Part shown: piece after piece, positions 6,296 through 18,200 of the stretch | Layout: every line of letters starts with the position of its first letter | Numbering within the stretch: the stretch's first letter is position 1 | Virus record (IMG/VR): IMGVR_UViG_3300025732_000201 | Location: 1 to 28,723 of that record | DNA: 28,723 bases | Reading direction: 5' to 3' (one strand) | DNA from: a virus | Translations under genes and position numbers: made by a program | The notes under the pieces: model-generated | What the model was told of the DNA's origin: nothing | Seen by the model: only the letters and a program-made list of their open reading frames with translations | Database searches by the model: none

Positions 6296-8377
6296 TTAGA
6301 ATTTTACGCCAGACTTCAGCAGTTGCGCCCGCAGCGACGGAGGCATCTTGCTCAAGATTTCTGCCGTCTGTTGTGGCATTCTCGCCGCAATGTTCGACAG
6401 CGTTTGTGCCGCCTGCGCATTTCCCTGTGCGGCACTGGAAATGACATTATTCAATTGTTGCGTGGCCATGCCGCTGGGGCCAAACCACAACTCGGCCATG
6501 AAGGGAGCCGCAAACGGGGCCCCGGTGACAGCAGCGGTCACAAACGGGGCCGCATTACCGAGCACCTGTGCGCCACGGAGGTAGTTCTGTTGCGACGGCG
6601 TCAAGGCCGCAGGCATCTGGTCTAGGAGTGAGGTGTTCCCACTTGTCGCCACGTTGGCATACATCCGATCAAATGCCGCAAACGGGGACACACGTGGCGC
6701 GGCGACCGGGGACGGGGCGGAGACTGGTGCCGCGTTCTGACGACCCACTCCCAACCGCTGCTGGAGAAGACGCGCAGCATCCAGTTGCGCACGAATACCC
6801 TGTTGCTCCGGAGTTGTCGTCGTGAAATTCACATTCGGTAACGGCACAGCAGTCTGTTCAAACATGCTCCATTGGCCATTTGGCAAACGGCCCTCAGACG
6901 GTGCCAGCGGAGGACGCGGACCAAAGAGGCGAACGTCGGAACGGCCAAATTGTGATGCCGGAATTGTCAGTGTGGTGACCGGACCCGCTTGCGGAGCGGC
7001 CGGGGCTGCTGGTGAAGTCAGCTGCGACTGGATACCCGGAGTCTGCATCGGGATAAACGGTTGCTGAGCCTGTGCTGGTCCCATACCCGGGAACAAATTT
7101 CCGGCCCGACGGAATCCGCCCAGTGTCCCAGACCCCGTGGGTGTTGGCGTGCGTCCGCTCAAGTCAGGGGGCGTGACGCTGCCCGTGGGTGACAAGGACT
7201 GCCCGGCAGGGCCAATGCGATCATACAGAGGCGACGAGACGGTCGCTCCGGGGCCCATCGGTTTGGGGCCCGTCTGTCGTGGCACGTAAGCTTTGGCGCC
7301 GGGCAGGAAGGGCGCGATCATCTGCGCCACTTGTTCGGTCTGTCCGCCCACAGCGGCGCCACCCAACTGGGTCAGGGCTCGCGGATTCAGGATGGCCCGC
7401 TTGATGGCCGCCGAGGCCGACTCCTTGACGCCCTCGCTGATGCCCCGCTTGGCGGCTTCACCGGCCGCACCCCCACCGATGGCGGAGGTGGCGGCTCCCA
7501 TGGCGGCTCCGGTCAGGGCGCCTTTGGCGCCACCGCTCAGGGCGCCTTTGAGCGCCCCTGAGCCTGCCCCAATCAGGGCGAGGGAAGTGCCGCCCGTAAA
7601 GGGCGCGGCCACAATCGGGGCCGCCGTGGCCGCCACGTTCAGGACCTTCTTCCACCACGACGTCTTCTTGGGCTGCGCGGCGGCGCTGGACTGGGTGGGC
7701 GGGATGCCCTGCGTGGGCTGGGGCTGGCTCAGGGCGTTGGCCGCCTGCATCTGTGTGGTGAGCAGGTTGAGCAGCTGGTTCTCGCGGCTGAGGCGGTCGG
7801 CCGCCACACCTTGGGCGTAGGTGGCCACTTCCTTTTCAAGGTTGGGCACCCCGTAGTCGGCCATCGAGCCAAATTGGAAGGTGGGGTCCACGCCCGCCTT
7901 GGCCTTGCGCCGCTCGGCCAGCGACCGGGCCGTCGTGCCGACGGAGGCCGCCTGCTGCATGTCCGGCGTCGTGAACGCGCCCAGCACATTGCTGGTCGGG
8001 CGAATCAGCCCGGCAATGTCGGCGGAGGCCGGAGCCAGCGGCTGGAAGTTCCCCATGACGCCCATGAGGCCCCGGCGCAGCGCCTGCTTGCCGACATACT
8101 CCTGCTCCTCTCCCAGCGGAGAGGCATTCAGGAGGGCCTGCCGTCCTGCCGCTCGGGTCGCATTCAGCTGATCGTAGTAGGCCGCCAGCTGATTGCGGGC
8201 GGCCATCTGCGCATTGTATTGCTGCAGCAGACGATTCCATGCGTCCTGCTGCGACGCCTGCTCGGCCGAGCGTTCGGCCGCTTTGCCACTGGCCACCCCG
8301 CCGACCACATTTGTCGCAAGCTGGCCCAGATTGATCCAGTCGCTCGCCTTCAGCTGCTCAAGAAATTTGTTTGCCAT
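6296..8377 (-). CDS. Putative internal virion/ejection protein with membrane-active Gly/Ala segment
   Basis: 693 residues. The N-terminal about 215 residues are helical and Gln/Ala-rich. Residues about 245-310 form a Gly/Ala-rich hydrophobic region with repeats of the type GALKGALSGG, AKGALTGAAMGAA and SAIGGGAAGEA, which resembles glycine-zipper membrane segments. It is followed by a long Pro/Thr/Gly-rich linker (about 350-500) and a C-terminal helical part. Ejection proteins of short-tailed phages carry such membrane-inserting segments to build a channel through the host envelope. Function is inferred from composition and neighbours; there is no recognised family motif. The start ATG at 8377 lies 12 bases after the upstream stop. 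Confidence 0.65.
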   Translation of the reverse strand: MANKFLEQLKASDWINLGQLATNVVGGVASGKAAERSAEQASQQDAWNRLLQQYNAQMAARNQLAAYYDQLNATRAAGRQALLNASPLGEEQEYVGKQALRRGLMGVMGNFQPLAPASADIAGLIRPTSNVLGAFTTPDMQQAASVGTTARSLAERRKAKAGVDPTFQFGSMADYGVPNLEKEVATYAQGVAADRLSRENQLLNLLTTQMQAANALSQPQPTQGIPPTQSSAAAQPKKTSWWKKVLNVAATAAPIVAAPFTGGTSLALIGAGSGALKGALSGGAKGALTGAAMGAATSAIGGGAAGEAAKRGISEGVKESASAAIKRAILNPRALTQLGGAAVGGQTEQVAQMIAPFLPGAKAYVPRQTGPKPMGPGATVSSPLYDRIGPAGQSLSPTGSVTPPDLSGRTPTPTGSGTLGGFRRAGNLFPGMGPAQAQQPFIPMQTPGIQSQLTSPAAPAAPQAGPVTTLTIPASQFGRSDVRLFGPRPPLAPSEGRLPNGQWSMFEQTAVPLPNVNFTTTTPEQQGIRAQLDAARLLQQRLGVGRQNAAPVSAPSPVAAPRVSPFAAFDRMYANVATSGNTSLLDQMPAALTPSQQNYLRGAQVLGNAAPFVTAAVTGAPFAAPFMAELWFGPSGMATQQLNNVISSAAQGNAQAAQTLSNIAARMPQQTAEILSKMPPSLRAQLLKSGVKF

Positions 8378-10989: not shown

Positions 10990-11499
10990 TTAGCTCAGGG
11001 GGCTGAGGATCGCGGACTGGATGGGGGAGAGGGCGTTGGCGGCGGCCGAGGGCTGGCCCGTCTGCTGCTGGAGCCACTGGCCAAAGGAGGCCATGGCTTC
11101 ATCGACGCTCTGAACGGGGCCCACAATCTGCTGGACGTCCATCGCGGACAGCGGTTGGCCAAGGACCTGCTGGCCCGCCCGGGCCAAGAGTTCAAAGGGG
11201 TTCTGGGAGTGGCGGTTGGCCCAGACAATCTGTTCGGCCGTCTGGACGGGCGTCGTGGGATAGAGGGGCCCGGGTCCCGGCGTGCCTGCGCCGGGAGCGC
11301 CCATCGGCGCTTGGGGCGCTTGGGGCGAGGCGGCCATGCGCATCGGGGCACGGGGCTGCCCAAAGCCGCGAGGCCCCCCATTGTTGGCTTGGGTCAGGGG
11401 CGCCGGACGGGACGTGGGCTGGCTCGACCCGGGCGAGAAGCCTCGGGGGGCGCCGGTCTCTCGGCTGGACGAACGGTAGAGCGGGAGTTGAATGGCCAT
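10990..11499 (-). CDS. Pro/Gly-rich hypothetical protein
   Basis: 169 residues from the ATG at 11499, which overlaps the endolysin stop by one base (TAATG). The longer frame to 11532 is rejected. The first about 90 residues are Pro/Gly/Arg/Ser-rich and probably disordered. The last about 75 are helical (AEQIVWANRHSQNPFELLAR and QSVDEAMASFGQWLQQQTG). No family is recognised. It links the lysis genes to the DUF4214-like group and is likely a minor virion protein. Confidence 0.6.
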   Translation of the reverse strand: MAIQLPLYRSSSRETGAPRGFSPGSSQPTSRPAPLTQANNGGPRGFGQPRAPMRMAASPQAPQAPMGAPGAGTPGPGPLYPTTPVQTAEQIVWANRHSQNPFELLARAGQQVLGQPLSAMDVQQIVGPVQSVDEAMASFGQWLQQQTGQPSAAANALSPIQSAILSPLS

Positions 11500-11960
11500 T
11501 ACAGTCCCAGTTGATAGAGGCGGTGGACCCACCCCTTCAGGAAGGGATGGGACGCGATGGATACGTAGTAGTCCAGCCGGGCCCGCAGCAAGGTGCGGGC
11601 GTCCGCCCCATCAATCGCCGTCAAGGTGTTCGGGCCGATCACGCCATCAGCCGTGACGCGCAGGGCCTGCTGCAACGGCTTGATGGCCAGCGGCCCACTG
11701 TTGACAAGCCAGTCGCACACGATTTCCGCATTGGTCACCGACTGCAGCTGGTGCAAGTTATACTTGCGGAGGTAGTCCCGCAAATAGAGGGTGACGGCGT
11801 CGGCCTTGGTCAGGTTCCGAATGTCGAGGTCTGGGTAGGCGCGGCGGCTAATGCCGTATTTGGTCAAGCCCCCGGGGTCCTTGGGATGCTCGACCATGCC
11901 CCCCTCGCGCTCAATAATCCCATACACGATGGCGAGCTGCTGGACCTGTGTGAGTGCCAC
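11499..11960 (-). CDS. Endolysin: GH108-type N-acetylmuramidase with C-terminal peptidoglycan-binding domain
   Basis: 153 residues. The N terminus has the GH108 signature: EREGG with the presumed catalytic Glu19, followed by HPKDPGGLTKYGIS at 25-38. Residues about 75-150 match the companion domain of this family (PG_binding_3-like: NSGPLAIKPLQQALRVTADG, VIGPNTLTAI). The protein should hydrolyse the MurNAc-GlcNAc bond of the host wall during lysis. There is no signal peptide, so it needs a holin to reach the wall; two candidate membrane proteins lie directly upstream. Length and motif order are normal for the family. Confidence 0.9.
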   Translation of the reverse strand: MALTQVQQLAIVYGIIEREGGMVEHPKDPGGLTKYGISRRAYPDLDIRNLTKADAVTLYLRDYLRKYNLHQLQSVTNAEIVCDWLVNSGPLAIKPLQQALRVTADGVIGPNTLTAIDGADARTLLRARLDYYVSIASHPFLKGWVHRLYQLGL

Positions 11961-12197
11961 TTATTTGCCAAAGACTTGCTGGAGTAACGCCAAGAGGGCA
12001 CCCGCCGCGGTGCCACTGGCGGCCCCCACGGCGGCAGCGGCCCGGGTCGGGGCCCGATCTTCGAGGATGCCCACGCGGGCATCCAGCTTGAAGACGCGCC
12101 CATTTTGCTCGCGTTGAAGCTTGACCAGCTCTTGCACGTCTTGGCGAATCGGTTCGATATGGGCGAGGAACTCCTCGCGGCTAATCGGGTCGGACAT
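11961..12197 (-). CDS. Small coiled-coil membrane protein, holin-like or lysis accessory
   Basis: 78 residues. Residues 6-50 are a charged amphipathic helix or coiled coil (EEFLAHIEPIRQDVQELVKL, then a heptad-like QREQNGRVFKLDARV). The C terminus (about 52-76) is one Ala/Gly/Leu-rich hydrophobic segment (AGALLALLQQVFG). This tail-anchored layout occurs in XhlA-like and other phage lysis accessory proteins. It abuts the muramidase start directly and lies 6 bases after the end of the proposed frameshift extension of the gene upstream. The function is inferred from topology and position. Confidence 0.7.
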   Translation of the reverse strand: MSDPISREEFLAHIEPIRQDVQELVKLQREQNGRVFKLDARVGILEDRAPTRAAAAVGAASGTAAGALLALLQQVFGK

Positions 12198-12203
12198 GGA
12201 CGG

Positions 12204-12712
12204 TTACCAGCTCCAGCGCATCGTGCCCTGAGCCCCCCAGCGCCCCGTCCATGTCCGGGAGGCCATGGCCTCGACCGTCAGGTGGGGAGTCCGGGGCGTC
12301 CACTGCACGCCTGCCTGTACGCCTACAGAGGTGACCCCGGCGAGGAGTTCGCCCCGGCGACCGGGGCGCTGGGAAAATTTGACGACGCTCCCAGTCCCAC
12401 TTCGGGCAGGGTGGCTTTGATGCGGGCCTCGGTCTCCTCCGGACTCAGCCCAAACTGGGGCGACACGGCCTCGATGGCCCGTTCCAATTTCTGGTAGGAG
12501 GTCGCGGGCAGCTTGGCCTTGAGGCGCGCCGCCCCCCATTCTTCTGCCTCAAAGATGGCCCGGCGAATGGCGGCATCGAGCGCCGCCTGCTGGGCCTCCG
12601 ACAGTTGGATGTGAAGCCGCCGCAACAGCTGCACGGCTCCGGCCACGAGGATCGGCACCAGCGCCGCAATCCCGGCCTGCACAATCGTCTGGACAATCTG
12701 TTCCATCGCCAT
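12204..12712 (-). CDS. Proposed -1 frameshift product of the holin-like gene (about 169 aa)
   Basis: If ribosomes slip back one base on A_AAT_TTT (12374-12380), translation leaves the holin frame after Phe113 and reads 56 more codons (SQRPGRRGELLAGVTS to the end at MRWSW), stopping at TAA 12204-12206, 6 bases before the next gene. Counting third positions by hand, this extension has about 84% G or C, like real genes here. The same frame upstream of the slippery site has only about half. The extension alternates polar and hydrophobic residues and ends in an aromatic, resembling membrane beta-strands. No ATG, GTG or TTG lies between 12536 and the heptamer in that frame, so separate initiation would need the ATG at 12539 deep inside the gene. 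Confidence 0.6.
12323..12712 (-). CDS. Holin-like membrane protein (zero-frame product)
   Basis: 129 residues. A single hydrophobic helix at about 5-30 (IVQAGIAALVPILVAGAVQL) is followed by a charged helical region with Ala, Glu and Arg, including an AIFEAEEWGAARLKAKLP stretch. This resembles the one-TM LL-H-type holins that sit next to endolysins. The last 16 residues after Phe113 are Pro/Ser/Ala/Gly-rich and unstructured. The gene ends in TAG at 12323, leaving 125 bases before the next gene in a block where gaps are otherwise 0-11 bases. A slippery site and hairpin lie at codons 111-118 (see the frameshift entries). No good Shine-Dalgarno is seen; an in-frame ATG two codons downstream is an alternative start. 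Confidence 0.7.
   Translation of the reverse strand: MAMEQIVQTIVQAGIAALVPILVAGAVQLLRRLHIQLSEAQQAALDAAIRRAIFEAEEWGAARLKAKLPATSYQKLERAIEAVSPQFGLSPEETEARIKATLPEVGLGASSNFPSAPVAGANSSPGSPL
12350..12380 (-). promoter_or_regulatory. Programmed -1 ribosomal frameshift signal
   Basis: Minus-strand heptamer AAATTTT (12374-12380) lies in the phase A_AAT_TTT relative to the holin frame, the canonical X_XXY_YYZ arrangement. After a 5-base spacer (CCCAG) comes a perfect 8-bp stem CGCCCCGG/CCGGGGCG (12361-12368 with 12350-12357) closed by TCG. Heptamer, spacer length and GC-only stem all match known -1 frameshift stimulators. An A/T run of seven is rare in this GC-rich block. Confidence 0.7.
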
Positions 12713-13793: not shown

Positions 13794-14378
13794 TTAGAAG
13801 AACTCCACTACACAAAAACCCACTGTCGGGCTACCGCCAGCGGCCCAATACTCGCCGCGCTGCGCCGTGACGGTTGTGCTGTTTGTGAGGATCACAGAGC
13901 ACATATTGTTGTTGCCTGCTGGGTATCCGCCTGTGTTGTCATTGGAGGTCGTCCCCATGAACAACACCACGCTCTTTGCGGTATCCACCGCCGTGATCGT
14001 GCCGGTTTTGGTCGGCGTCTCCGTGGTGAAAGCAATGGTGCTGTATTGAATTGACTTAATCACCCCGGGCACAAATTCGAGCACAGACGCCTTCGCGACT
14101 GCTCCGCCACCGCCCGTATTGACCGTGAACGTCACACTCGTTGGGCTGATGGCGCTCACACGCGCAAACCAATACTGCTTCGTGTCGTTATACGCAGAAA
14201 AACTATTGTTCCCGAACAACACGATCGTGTTGGCTGTATCAACGGCGGCAATGGTTACGGCGGCGGACGCGGTACCCGAAGCCGTTTGCGCTGACCGAAT
14301 GAGCGACGACGCGCCCCACTGGGCAATAACGCCGCTCGATCCCAGCGGCCCGATGCGATTTGCACCACGTCTATTCAT
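13794..14378 (-). CDS. Beta-rich presumed tail/fibre protein with internal repeat
   Basis: 194 residues, almost all predicted beta. Two related halves are visible: residues about 41-103 and 127-194, with AAVDTANTIVLF (44-55) matching TAVDTAKSVVLF (129-140). Both are followed by a Thr/Ser/Val-rich strand set and a Gly-rich turn. The protein ends in aromatic residues (VVEFF). Such repeated small beta-domains are typical of receptor-binding or decoration proteins. Its DNA is poorer in G+C than neighbouring genes, with more A/T-ending codons, suggesting acquisition by recombination. Confidence 0.6.
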   Translation of the reverse strand: MNRRGANRIGPLGSSGVIAQWGASSLIRSAQTASGTASAAVTIAAVDTANTIVLFGNNSFSAYNDTKQYWFARVSAISPTSVTFTVNTGGGGAVAKASVLEFVPGVIKSIQYSTIAFTTETPTKTGTITAVDTAKSVVLFMGTTSNDNTGGYPAGNNNMCSVILTNSTTVTAQRGEYWAAGGSPTVGFCVVEFF

Positions 14379-14389
14379 GATGCAATGCC

Positions 14390-14737
14390 TTAGCCGATGC
14401 GGTTGACGTAGCCATTAATCAAGATCACGTTGGCCGTTGCGGCGAACGCCTTGACCACCAGCGAATTGGTCAGCACCATGCCGGGGATGACGAGCATGTA
14501 GCCCGATTCCGCGGGGATCGTGACCTCGACGTTGCCGTCGGGTGCGGTGGCTTCACCCCACTCGATGGTCAGCTTGCGAGCCGTGGTATCGCTGTTGACG
14601 GCCCAGAGCCAGATTTCATCCAGCGAGGTGGCGTGCGCGGTGTGGATCGTGGTACCGGCCGTGGCGGTCGCCGCGACCTTGATCTGCTTGCCGTCGGTCG
14701 AGCCGCTGAGTTTGAGTTTGGTAAAGGAAACAGCCAT
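14390..14737 (-). CDS. Small beta-rich presumed virion protein
   Basis: 115 residues in a pattern of short strands (QIKVAATATAGTTIHTAH, EIWLWAVNSDTTARKLTIEW, then VEVTIPAESGYMLVIPGMVL). This pattern is common in small phage proteins that coat the head or tail and describe a jelly-roll-like domain. There is no signal peptide. It sits within a run of five small genes of similar type. No precise family is assigned. Confidence 0.6.
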   Translation of the reverse strand: MAVSFTKLKLSGSTDGKQIKVAATATAGTTIHTAHATSLDEIWLWAVNSDTTARKLTIEWGEATAPDGNVEVTIPAESGYMLVIPGMVLTNSLVVKAFAATANVILINGYVNRIG

Positions 14738-14746
14738 GAAATCCTC

Positions 14747-15124
14747 TTAGCTAAAGACTTGCGTGGACAGAATGTTCTGGTCGGAATCGACCGCTGCACC
14801 CGTGGCCCCGACCGTGGCGGCTTTTTGCCAGTTGGTGCCGTCGCAGACGAAGGTGGCGCTATCGTATTGGGCGGTCAGGGTTGCGGTGGTAGCTCCGTCC
14901 AGCGTTTCGCTGGCGTTGCCGTCGAGCGTGACGGCGTTCGCGCTGCTATCGGTCTTCTTGACCGTGATGATCTTGCCCGCGTTGCCCGACGCGGCATAGA
15001 AGGTGATGGTGACGGCGCCGCCCGAGGCGCTCGTGTTGACCTGCACGTTGTCGCCGTCGTTGGTGCTGACGGTGTAATTGGCGGTCTTGCTGAGAACGGC
15101 GGGAATGGCTTTGATGTAGGACAT
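14747..15124 (-). CDS. Beta-domain virion protein, paralogue of 15128-15649 and 19140-19508
   Basis: 125 residues. Residues about 10-95 hold a domain shared with two other genes in this window: LSKTANYTV, then DGDNV, YAASGNAGKIITVKK, ASETLDGATT and DGTNWQ. This 'TVKK...SETLDGA...DGTNW' pattern is common in phage tail-fibre and decoration proteins. The C-terminal about 25 residues are a Thr/Ala/Gln tail not found in the paralogues. No signal peptide is present, unlike the other two copies. Confidence 0.7.
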   Translation of the reverse strand: MSYIKAIPAVLSKTANYTVSTNDGDNVQVNTSASGGAVTITFYAASGNAGKIITVKKTDSSANAVTLDGNASETLDGATTATLTAQYDSATFVCDGTNWQKAATVGATGAAVDSDQNILSTQVFS

Positions 15125-15127
15125 AGG

Positions 15128-15649
15128 TTAGACCAGATGCCAGTTGGTGCCATCCGAGATGGCGGTGAGGGACTGATACTTGGCGCCAATGACGACGGTC
15201 GCGGCCCCATCCAGCGTTTCACTCGCGTAGCCGTCGATGGTGACGGCGCCCGTGCCGATGTTCTTGACCGTGACCGTACGCCCCGCATTGCCCGAGGCGG
15301 TGTAGAGGGTGACGGTGTACGTGCCGTTCATCAGGACGGTGACGTGGGCCCCATCGTTCGTCGTGACGGTGTAGTCGGCCGTCTTGCTCAGGAGGGTGGA
15401 CGGGATGCCGACGCTCAGGTCGACGCCATCAATGGTGACGCCCGCCGACGCGGCAATATTGCCCGTGAGCGTGCCCCCCGTCCGGTCCAGCGCGTTGGAG
15501 GACAGCTGGGCAAAATTGGCGTTCACCTCGGCGCTATAGATGGTGCCGCCGGGGCTGAAGCTGTTCGGGACGTTGATTTGGGCCGAGGCCGCCCGAGGGA
15601 CCAACAGGGCCACCAGTAGGACGAACAGGGCAGACAGCGCAAAGGTCAT
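15128..15649 (-). CDS. Beta-domain tail-type protein with signal peptide
   Basis: 173 residues. The first 23 are hydrophobic (LSALFVLLVALLVPRAASA) and end in an AxA-type site before QINVPNS, so they look like a Sec signal peptide, though the n-region lacks a positive charge. Residues about 25-75 (FSPGGTIYSAEVNANF, then LDRTGGTLTGNI, GVTIDGVDLS) are typical of tail-fibre N-terminal regions. Residues about 85-173 carry the shared beta-domain (LSKTADYTV, GNAGRTVTVKN, SETLDGAAT, DGTNWHLV). A signal peptide on a presumed virion part is odd. It may instead mark a protein exported to the host envelope. Confidence 0.65.
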   Translation of the reverse strand: MTFALSALFVLLVALLVPRAASAQINVPNSFSPGGTIYSAEVNANFAQLSSNALDRTGGTLTGNIAASAGVTIDGVDLSVGIPSTLLSKTADYTVTTNDGAHVTVLMNGTYTVTLYTASGNAGRTVTVKNIGTGAVTIDGYASETLDGAATVVIGAKYQSLTAISDGTNWHLV

Positions 15650-15655
15650 GGGTCG

Positions 15656-16021
15656 TTAGCTCCGCTCAAGAAACACAAGGAGGCGTGTCGAATAGTTCGC
15701 CACCGTCGAGCGTAACACCAGATAGGTCGCGCCAAACGGCATCCGGTTCGGGGCCGAGGAGCGGTAGACTGAGGCTCTGGCGTCCGTTCCAGTATACACG
15801 GTTCCGGGGGTAATGTCAAGCCACCGCAGGGTTTCCGGATCTTCGGGCCGGAGGACGGTAATGGGAATGACGGTATCCGTGTCGGCCGCCGCGAAGGTGG
15901 CCGTCACATACTCAAACTGCCGCATGGGCAGCTGGCGGCGCAGGGCCGCGTCATTGATGGTGACACTGGCACTGGCGGTCTGCCAGCTCGCCTCGCGTGT
16001 CGGCGTCTCCTCAGTTGCCAT
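15656..16021 (-). CDS. Small hypothetical virion-type protein
   Basis: 121 residues. It overlaps the end of the large tail-hub-like gene by 11 bases. The sequence alternates beta-type stretches (FEYVTATFAAADTDTVIPIT, then YLVLRSTVANYSTRLLVFLE) with Arg/Pro turns. No family is recognised. Position between the hub-like protein and the beta-domain genes suggests a small structural or assembly protein. Confidence 0.55.
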   Translation of the reverse strand: MATEETPTREASWQTASASVTINDAALRRQLPMRQFEYVTATFAAADTDTVIPITVLRPEDPETLRWLDITPGTVYTGTDARASVYRSSAPNRMPFGATYLVLRSTVANYSTRLLVFLERS

Positions 16022-18200
16022 AGACGCGATCCGATTGGGCCCGGGCCAGCACGCCCACGCCGTTCACCACAATGTCCCGATTGGTCTGGAAGTGGAACAG
16101 GGCGAGGCGGAGCGCATGGGCCGTCCGCAGCAGGGGTAGGCGCTTCTTGAGGAGCCCTTGGCCCGCCCAGACGCTGGTGTCCCAGAGGCTGGTGCTGTCA
16201 TCCCATATGTCGCCCACCACGTCAATGATGTTCTTGGCGGCCCGACTTTCATTGGTAAAGTTGACTTGGGACGTCAGGTAAAAGCCCGAGGTGTTGCCCG
16301 CCGACTCCAGCTGGAGGTAGGCCCGGTCAAACCGCTTCCGAATGAAGATCTGGTCGAGGTCCAGCCACTTGGTGTAGAGGCGGAAGTCCGGGCTGCCCAG
16401 ATAGCAGGTGTAGGTCGCCCCCGCCGTCAGGCCCGTCAGGGTGGCGGTCAGAGTCAGCTCGGTGCTGGTATTGCTGGCAATCTGGACTTTGGCGATGGGG
16501 CGATTGTCGCTGTCGGTGATGACGGCCATGCGGGCGGTCAGCCCCGACCCCGTCGTATAGAAGCCCGTGCCGTCGATGGTGGTGATGCTGGAGGTGACCG
16601 GGACGAAGGTGGTGCTGACGGTGCCGCTCGGCACGGCGTCGTTATGGGTGTCTTGGTCGAAGTAGAAGACTTGGCCCTCGGTGCCCCCCACAAAGCAGCG
16701 CTGGCTCCCGTCCGCAATGTAGCCAAGGGCAAGGGCGCCCACGGGCATGGGATTCCAGCGCGTGGCCTCCCACTGCTCCACGACGTAGTTGTAGGGGAAC
16801 AGGATGTCGAGCGTGTCCTCGTTGAGCAGGCTCGGGGCCGCCCAGATGACGCGGCTGCCTTGGGGGTCATGGCCCGCCCAGATGCGCGACAGGCGCGACT
16901 GCTCGATCTGATCGACGACGAGCGGGCGCCCCAGCTTGGTCAGGGCGAGGGGCGTGATGCGCTGGCCATCAAAGCTGACCGGCCCCTCGGCGTTCGACCA
17001 CCACGCCACCGCCCCGTTGAACTCGACGATGCTGGTGTGGCTGGCACAGCCAATCGTATGGTCGATGGCTTTGAGAGTCCATGTCTGGGGGTCGTTGCCG
17101 AAGATGCCCCAGACGGCCGTGGTCGTGAAGACGAGGAGGAGTTCGTCGCTGAACGGATAGAGGCTCGTAATCTGGTCGCCCTCCCCCGTCTCGATGGGCT
17201 CGTAGTTGAGCGGCGGGAAGTTGTCGGGCTTGTCCTGCTTGGACCAGTAGATCTTGCGGGTGTCGGCCACGATGAGGCGACGGCCATACGTGGTCACGAA
17301 CCGGGCACTGGACGGCGGCCCATTGTTCTCGGTGGTGGTGGGGGCCACCGTGGTCAGGTTGGCAATCTGGGCGGCCGACAGGTCAATGTAGACCGTGGTG
17401 GTGCCCACGGGAATATTGCCATCGGTGGCGATGGGGGACCCGGACACATCCTCGAACGTCAGGACTTGGTAGAGGCTGGCTTGGGTCGTGGTGCGGCGCA
17501 GGTAGACGCGCCAGTAGGGATAGCGGGCCGTCTCGGCGGCAGTCGGGCTGATGGTGACCGTGAGGCGGCGATTGCCACCCCCGGGCGTCCCGGACTGATA
17601 GGTGGCGAGGCTGGACTCGGCCCCGGTCACGACGTCGTAGGTGGTGATGGCGACGTCGTAGGTCTCGTTGGGCATGGCGCTGGTGCCCGTCGCATCGTTG
17701 CCCAAGGTCCAGCTGGCGTAGGGGGCGAGCCCCCACATGTGATAGGTGCTGCCCGTCAGGGCGCGTTGGTCACCCGCGCTGCTGAGGAGGAAGAAGCGAT
17801 TGGCAAAGACGGTCGCATCGACCGTGACGTCGCCTGCCGTAATGGCCGTGCTGGGCGAGGGGAAGTTGGCCGGGGGCGCAATGGCGGCACTGAAGACGTC
17901 GGCATTGTCCTTGAGGCGCAGGGTGCCATCGTTGGCGATGGCCACTTGGTAGTTGGTGTAGCCGCTGCCGGTATTGTAGCTGTAGAGGCGGAGGAACTGG
18001 ATGTGGGGATTGGTGCTGAAGGCGGTCGTGTTCACGACCTTCAGCCCCGGCCGCACGCCCAGCTGCGCCAGCCCCTCGCCAATATTGCGGAAGGCGGTGT
18101 TGTAGGCCAGCGGGGTGCTGTTGAGCGGAATGCGGTCCGGCGGGGAGGCCGCTTGGACCCCCTTGCTCCAGTCCGTGATTTCTTGGTAGAGGTCGCCCAT
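16011..18200 (-). CDS. Tail hub/nozzle-like structural protein
   Basis: 729 residues, mostly beta. The N terminus (DWSKGVQAASPPDRIPLNST, followed by AYNTAFRN and LGVRPGLKVV) is a common opening of large phage tail-hub proteins. Residues about 300-420 (RRLIVADTRKIYWSKQDKPD, then YPFSDELLLVFTTTAVWGIF and NGAVAWWSNAEGPVSFDG) have the blade-like repeats of a beta-propeller. The nozzle proteins of short-tailed phages (T7 gp12, P22 gp10) are built this way, and they also follow the adaptor gene as here. The start overlaps the adaptor stop (TGATG). The specific equivalence is inferred from position, size and beta pattern. Confidence 0.65.
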   Translation of the reverse strand: MGDLYQEITDWSKGVQAASPPDRIPLNSTPLAYNTAFRNIGEGLAQLGVRPGLKVVNTTAFSTNPHIQFLRLYSYNTGSGYTNYQVAIANDGTLRLKDNADVFSAAIAPPANFPSPSTAITAGDVTVDATVFANRFFLLSSAGDQRALTGSTYHMWGLAPYASWTLGNDATGTSAMPNETYDVAITTYDVVTGAESSLATYQSGTPGGGNRRLTVTISPTAAETARYPYWRVYLRRTTTQASLYQVLTFEDVSGSPIATDGNIPVGTTTVYIDLSAAQIANLTTVAPTTTENNGPPSSARFVTTYGRRLIVADTRKIYWSKQDKPDNFPPLNYEPIETGEGDQITSLYPFSDELLLVFTTTAVWGIFGNDPQTWTLKAIDHTIGCASHTSIVEFNGAVAWWSNAEGPVSFDGQRITPLALTKLGRPLVVDQIEQSRLSRIWAGHDPQGSRVIWAAPSLLNEDTLDILFPYNYVVEQWEATRWNPMPVGALALGYIADGSQRCFVGGTEGQVFYFDQDTHNDAVPSGTVSTTFVPVTSSITTIDGTGFYTTGSGLTARMAVITDSDNRPIAKVQIASNTSTELTLTATLTGLTAGATYTCYLGSPDFRLYTKWLDLDQIFIRKRFDRAYLQLESAGNTSGFYLTSQVNFTNESRAAKNIIDVVGDIWDDSTSLWDTSVWAGQGLLKKRLPLLRTAHALRLALFHFQTNRDIVVNGVGVLARAQSDRVYGN

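Follow-up and report, generated by a model that had tools for sequence, protein, structure and literature searches.

A probable programmed −1 frameshift, conserved in two relatives, in a holin-like membrane protein gene next to a phage endolysin

The question raised by this locus is whether a small membrane protein gene located near a phage endolysin is read in a single frame, or whether some ribosomes are directed into the −1 frame near its end to give a second, longer protein. The window, i.e. the whole stretch of DNA analysed, is the 28,723-nt IMG/VR virus record IMGVR_UViG_3300025732_000201, which contains phage head, portal and terminase genes, all on the minus strand, as are all the features of the locus. 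The gene at 12323..12712 encodes in its zero frame a protein of 129 aa with an N-terminal membrane helix (about residues 5-33) and a helical domain, and is a candidate for an LL-H-like holin. The sequence around the site reads in the zero frame ...GGA GCG TCG TCA AAT TTT CCC AGC..., and because the codons are TCA AAT TTT, the heptamer A_AAT_TTT (12374..12380, codons 111-113) lies in the X_XXY_YYZ phase, as the initial annotation had proposed and as re-reading of the minus strand bears out. The 5-nt spacer CCCAG (12369..12373) and the perfect all-GC hairpin described there were likewise confirmed, the latter being a probable stimulatory stem-loop CGCCCCGG-TCG-CCGGGGCG (12350..12368) with 8 G-C pairs and a 3-nt loop. 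From codon TCC at 12374 the −1 frame remains open through the extension SQRPGRRGELLAGVTSVGVQAGVQWTPRTPHLTVEAMASRTWTGRWGAQGTMRWSW (12204..12373), which comprises, in agreement with the earlier description, 56 codons and the stop TAA at 12206-12204, 6 nt before the start of the next gene at 12197. Translation of the two frames reproduces the predicted lengths of 129 and 169 residues, and G+C at third codon positions of the −1 frame, described earlier as high only downstream of the heptamer, is 0.81 there against 0.46 upstream. The next gene (11961..12197) encodes a 78-aa protein with a C-terminal membrane-like segment, followed by an endolysin gene (11499..11960) whose product contains a glycoside hydrolase 108 and a peptidoglycan-binding domain (PF05838, E = 2.6e-19; phrog_315 endolysin, E = 2.2e-36).

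The arrangement suggests that two proteins would be made from the one start at 12712. Most ribosomes would reach the zero-frame stop and release the 129-aa membrane protein, while a minority would pause at the GC stem and slip back by one base on A_AAT_TTT, with tRNA-Asn re-pairing from AAT to AAA and tRNA-Phe from TTT to TTT. The product of such a slip would be a fusion of 169 aa with the junction ...GLGASSNF-SQRPGRRGE... and the predicted junction peptide ATLPEVGLGASSNFSQRPGR, in which the 56 added residues form a conserved, probably beta-rich domain (hereafter the tail). The sequence shows the signal, its phase and spacing, the open frame, conservation in two relatives and purifying selection on the −1 frame, whereas the slippage itself and its frequency are inferred. 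The features that characterize programmed −1 frameshifting, namely an in-phase X_XXY_YYZ heptamer, a stem at a distance of about 5-9 nt and a conserved coding −1 frame, are all found at this locus.

Conservation of this layout could be followed in a small number of relatives within a group of uncultivated phages. The holin-like protein is rare: a plain search with that of the window gave no match in viral and bacterial collections and no usable one among named phages. About 20 related contigs were gathered by searching with two other proteins, the major head protein and a conserved structural one, to which profiles of the holin-like protein added only L079 (the same contig as L078), L080-L084 and L097, the last being a contig of a GenBank metagenome-assembled genome (MAG). 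A holin homologue is present on seven contigs, with its C-terminal end preserved in six. Its identity to the window protein is 64% in L097, 41% in L078 and about 33-38% in L070, L071, L080 and L082 (33-34% for L071 and L070); the tail is found in L097 and L078 and is lacking in the other four. In L097, the heptamer AAATTTT (6327-6333) occurs within GCA AAT TTT at a codon identical to that of the window and is followed by the 5-nt spacer TCCCG and a 9-bp stem GCCCCTCGC/GCGAGGGGC, whose sequence is unlike that of the window stem. L078 contains at the identical codon AGT TTT TTA, hence T_TTT_TTA (TTTTTTA, 14567-14573), then a 6-nt spacer and the 5-bp stem GCGGC-CAAG-GCCGC. Thus, with spacers of 5, 5 and 6 nt and stems of 8, 9 and 5 bp in the window, L097 and L078, respectively, the stem arms differ in sequence and the layout is kept. 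In all three genomes homologous tails are reached via the −1 frame and are followed directly by a gene for a membrane protein of 78-81 aa, which is 79% (L097) and 49% (L078) identical to that of the window. The same rule as in the window predicts fusion lengths of 165 aa for L097 and 209 aa for L078. Conversely, the tail-less homologues (L070, L071, L080 and L082) end in ...GASWALRRKDLADASVK and the stop, or similarly, and have no heptamer. The comparison across related phages that the initial annotation had proposed therefore finds heptamer, stem and extension all retained in L097 and L078. The feature is carried by only three genomes; no additional relative was obtained with a profile of the neighbour gene (which matched only the contig of L078), with a tighter two-sequence profile (no match) or among 384 genomes of the class of the MAG (only the L097 MAG itself). 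The window and L097 are closely related and part of their common signal reflects shared descent; L078 is nearly independent. As a separate observation, the region 6327-6390 of L097 can form two competing stems, one of 9 bp at 5 nt from the heptamer, whose loop contains the zero-frame stop, and the other of 8 bp at 1 nt.

A first alternative is that the heptamer arose by chance in a GC-rich gene and that the open −1 frame is a remnant that is not translated, or the result of faulty assembly. In its favour, a G+C content of 64-65% makes stop codons rare and open frames common. However, purifying selection on the tail (see below) speaks against it, as does the occurrence of the same frame relation in independent assemblies, the window from IMG/VR and L097 from a GenBank MAG, and we regard it as the least probable of the accounts considered. 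The heptamers themselves are infrequent. The coding regions of the window, L097, L078 and L071 contain 11 in-phase heptamers of any kind in 25,479 codon positions, and the three that consist entirely of A and T are precisely the sites at issue; a wider set of relatives, many of them richer in A+T and with some contigs counted twice, contains 22 such heptamers scattered over 86,191 positions. When each protein was held fixed and codons were drawn from the usage of its own genome, a heptamer fell within the last 25 codons in 1.6% (window), 1.9% (L097) and 1.1% (L078) of random recodings. The heptamers are built from rare codons, with TCA accounting for 5% of Ser, GCA for 5% of Ala and TTA for 3% of Leu codons. 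Concerning the stem, the 25-nt segment of the window has a minimum free energy of −17.3 kcal/mol, and no equally stable fold at that distance was found when 1,500 codon positions were sampled; the corresponding folds lie in the lowest 0.9% in L097 (50 nt) and in the lowest 1.7% in L078 (25 nt). For each genome, three window lengths were tried and the most favourable rank is given. In these GC-rich stretches, z-scores from dinucleotide shuffling are weak (−0.81 for the window, −1.52 for L097 and −0.20 for L078). Because of these weak scores and the choice among three lengths, the stem is taken as supportive rather than strong evidence.

That the tail evolves as protein is well supported by the pattern of substitutions, which points to purifying selection. 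Between the window and L097, the tail has a dN of 0.28 and a dS of 1.45 (dN/dS about 0.19, Fisher P = 1.4e-4), resembling the holin part of the gene (dN 0.26, dS 0.95), and past the zero-frame stop the differences are distributed as 9, 8 and 21 over the three codon positions of the −1 frame. Tail identity to the window is 57% in L097 and 39% in L078. The plain similarity of the window and L097 tails is not decisive, since the +1 frame also scores; the argument rests on the dN/dS ratio and the comparisons with L078. The window and L097 tails are homologous to the gene of L078, with none of 5,000 shuffles scoring as well.

A conserved coding tail could also be expressed as a separate small gene, from its own start or by ribosomes that reinitiate once they have passed the holin stop, with the heptamer being incidental. 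The starts considered for such a gene are the ATG of the TAATG overlap in which the zero frame of L078 ends and a GTG within the tail (offset +72 in the window, +63 or +69 in L097). This overlap favours independent translation, as does the presence of the GTG in both the window and L097, the first GTG of L097 being preceded by GAGGGG 6 nt upstream. However, the GTG of the window lacks a clear Shine-Dalgarno sequence, initiation at the GTG would yield only about 35 residues, and it would omit the conserved preceding stretch, although this stretch before the first possible GTG also matches the gene of L078 (P = 0.013 for the window and 0.005 for L097). In neither the window nor L097 is there a conserved start codon (ATG, GTG or TTG) from which the whole tail could be translated: the −1 frame of L097 has none of these codons between the upstream stop and the conserved tail, and in the window the only candidate over the corresponding interval is the non-conserved ATG at 12539. 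In L097, separate initiation would therefore give no more than a truncated tail; in the window, it would give either such a tail or a long unconserved product. The start at ATG 12539 (111 aa in the −1 frame, with GAGG upstream) was rejected, because in L097 and L078 the −1 frame is interrupted by stops between this position and the heptamer. A separate gene also leaves unexplained why all three genomes have a heptamer at an identical codon and why the tail-less relatives have none, so that we consider it unlikely. The initial annotation had held against a frameshift any relative that keeps a separately started downstream gene and lacks the heptamer or hairpin; L078 presents the first half of this combination, a downstream gene that can be started separately at TAATG, but it retains heptamer and stem beside it and hence does not refute frameshifting. 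In L078, the tail could thus also be made separately, by reinitiation, in addition to a shift.

A shift of frame might also arise during transcription, by slippage of RNA polymerase on the A/T run. Short runs do occur at the sites (AAATTTT, AAATTTTT and TTTTTT), but they comprise only 4-6 identical bases, and transcriptional slippage usually requires longer homopolymers. A phase-correct heptamer with a 5-6-nt spacer and a stem is moreover the design of a ribosomal site, which makes polymerase slippage very improbable. A programmed −1 ribosomal frameshift giving a minority long form is thus very likely, because the relatives keep the signal, their tails are homologous and under purifying selection, and no conserved start for the whole tail is present; the claim of the initial annotation is well supported by the comparison with the two relatives. 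As to the strength of the sites, A_AAT_TTT permits slippage for tRNA-Phe, and T_TTT_TTA, the heptamer of L078 and of HIV, does so less well; in E. coli, slippage at U_UUU_UUA is weaker than at A_AAA_AAG (PMC5009743).

The nature of the membrane protein is less firmly indicated. Its N-terminal membrane helix reaches a hydropathy of 2.12, and the GH108 endolysin is encoded two genes further on. The phrog_6918 holin profile matches with E = 5.7e-4 in L097 and 0.012 in the window, and holin and LL-H entries are among the weak fold matches of a fair structure model; with Holin_LLH (PF09682), the best score was 15.8 bits in L097, below the cut-off of 24.9, and the window protein gave no match. The description as holin-like given in the initial annotation thus stands for the position beside the endolysin and the weak phrog_6918 match, but not at the level of the PF09682 cut-off, and weakly designates the product of 12323..12712 by position and by weak profile and fold matches. 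Membership in a lysis system is suggested by endolysin adjacency together with this weak holin similarity, and since the holin assignment is weak, a lysis role rests on position. For a tail assembly chaperone, no match was found, and the neighbours are the 78-aa membrane protein and the endolysin; Rfam and tRNA scans found nothing. The endolysin has been exchanged beside a conserved module, being of the GH108 type in the window (11499-11960) and in L097 and of the TIGR02594 type in L078 (15098-15541). Holin-like gene, tail and neighbour gene can therefore be regarded as one module, because they are kept together while the endolysin is swapped.

What the long form may do can be approached only tentatively. 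The leading guess, made by analogy with two-form holins and given somewhat less than even weight, is that the short form acts as a holin-like protein and the long form as its minority partner, which would associate through the shared N-terminal part and alter the timing or mode of lysis; the initial annotation had likewise suggested that the two forms could time lysis. It is rather unlikely, even if the frameshift is real, that the long form is instead an envelope effector whose beta domain contacts the outer membrane or cell wall in a spanin-like or anchoring manner. Such a role would agree with the prediction of four beta-strands in the tail (low confidence, pLDDT 53) and with its C-terminal residues, which in each of the three tails alternate between hydrophobic and polar up to a final Trp, an aromatic-ended alternating pattern present in 3 of 1,039 other ORFs. 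Sub-threshold matches of the tail to the outer-membrane families IAT_beta (E 0.11) and TIGR03016 (E 0.021) point the same way, as does the lack of a convincing spanin candidate in lipobox scans of the window: the strict scan found none and the relaxed scan one short plus-strand ORF around 18,700, in a record not known to be complete, and neither a lipobox o-spanin with an i-spanin nor a lipoprotein with a C-terminal transmembrane domain was found in the window. However, every one of these matches is weak, and Arg or Lys residues directly after the membrane helix suggest, by the positive-inside rule, a cytoplasmic C-terminal part. Profile searches with the tail gave no family above cut-off, a PDB profile search gave chance-level matches only, and its structure model was too poor for a fold search. 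It appears quite improbable that the beta domain of the minority frameshift form of a single-helix protein extends to the outer membrane, with a single gene encoding both an inner-membrane form and an outer-membrane-disrupting form; if true, it would represent a new kind of lysis protein with the ratio of the two forms fixed by the ribosome.

Among known systems, the frameshift of tail assembly chaperones, exemplified by lambda gpG/gpGT (Xu, Hendrix and Duda 2004; reviewed in PMC5009743), resembles the present case in having a slippery heptamer late in the upstream ORF, one start and a minority −1 fusion. Unlike a chaperone gene, the gene studied here lies beside an endolysin, encodes a membrane protein with an unrelated beta-rich tail and is not followed by a tape-measure gene. 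T7 gene 10A/10B and the T3 capsid gene likewise yield, by a −1 shift near the gene end, a short form and one with a C-terminal extension, but their product is a capsid protein rather than a membrane protein of the lysis region. With the lambda S105/S107 holin/antiholin pair, the locus shares the predicted production of a major and a minor form with a common membrane domain from one lysis gene; there, two start codons create a 2-residue N-terminal difference, whereas here a frameshift would add 56 C-terminal residues. LL-H family holins (PF09682, phrog_6918) are similar in size, N-terminal membrane helix and helical C-terminal part, but the window and L097 proteins score below the Pfam cut-off and a frameshift tail was not found described in the literature for this family. 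For Streptomyces phages of cluster BI2, frameshifts have been predicted by a gene finder in genes near predicted holins (PMC9671017); these differ in their hosts, and the source is an announcement in which no signal or conservation is reported. The open-access literature search returned frameshifts of tail chaperones, capsids and transposases and no description of a holin made by frameshifting. The locus may thus represent a known mechanism in a new gene setting, a conserved frameshift in a membrane protein of the lysis region, with the novelty being provisional because the search covered open-access papers. Such a case would join phage frameshifting, as in tail chaperones and capsids, with the two-form control of holins, as by dual starts. 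If the gene serves lysis, the ribosome would set a ratio of forms on which lysis output depends, and one gene with one heptamer constitutes a small, testable cassette for how phages set lysis. Tails of this kind are missed in annotation because they have no start codon.

Some further observations concern the remainder of the window and its relatives. Another contig of the L097 MAG, L104 (G001:C267:1263-2498), encodes a head protein 95% identical to that of the window; a phage of this group was therefore binned with that MAG, from which no host assignment follows. An in-phase G_GGT_TTT occurs at 13821-13815 (minus strand), some 9 codons short of the end of a 194-aa gene, and is probably due to chance, because its −1 frame closes after only about 36 codons and runs into the next gene. 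This 194-aa gene (13794-14378) shares no more than about 40% identity with its counterpart in L053 (11768-12355), while its neighbours are 98-100% (14390-18200) and 82% (the next gene) identical, which would fit a local replacement or rapid evolution of this one gene within the virion region. The adjacent genes at 14747-15124 and 15128-15649 have a related region in common, with about 53% identity over 95 residues as judged from cross-matches in L053, which suggests a tandem duplication; L053 contains a third copy at 6773-7039.
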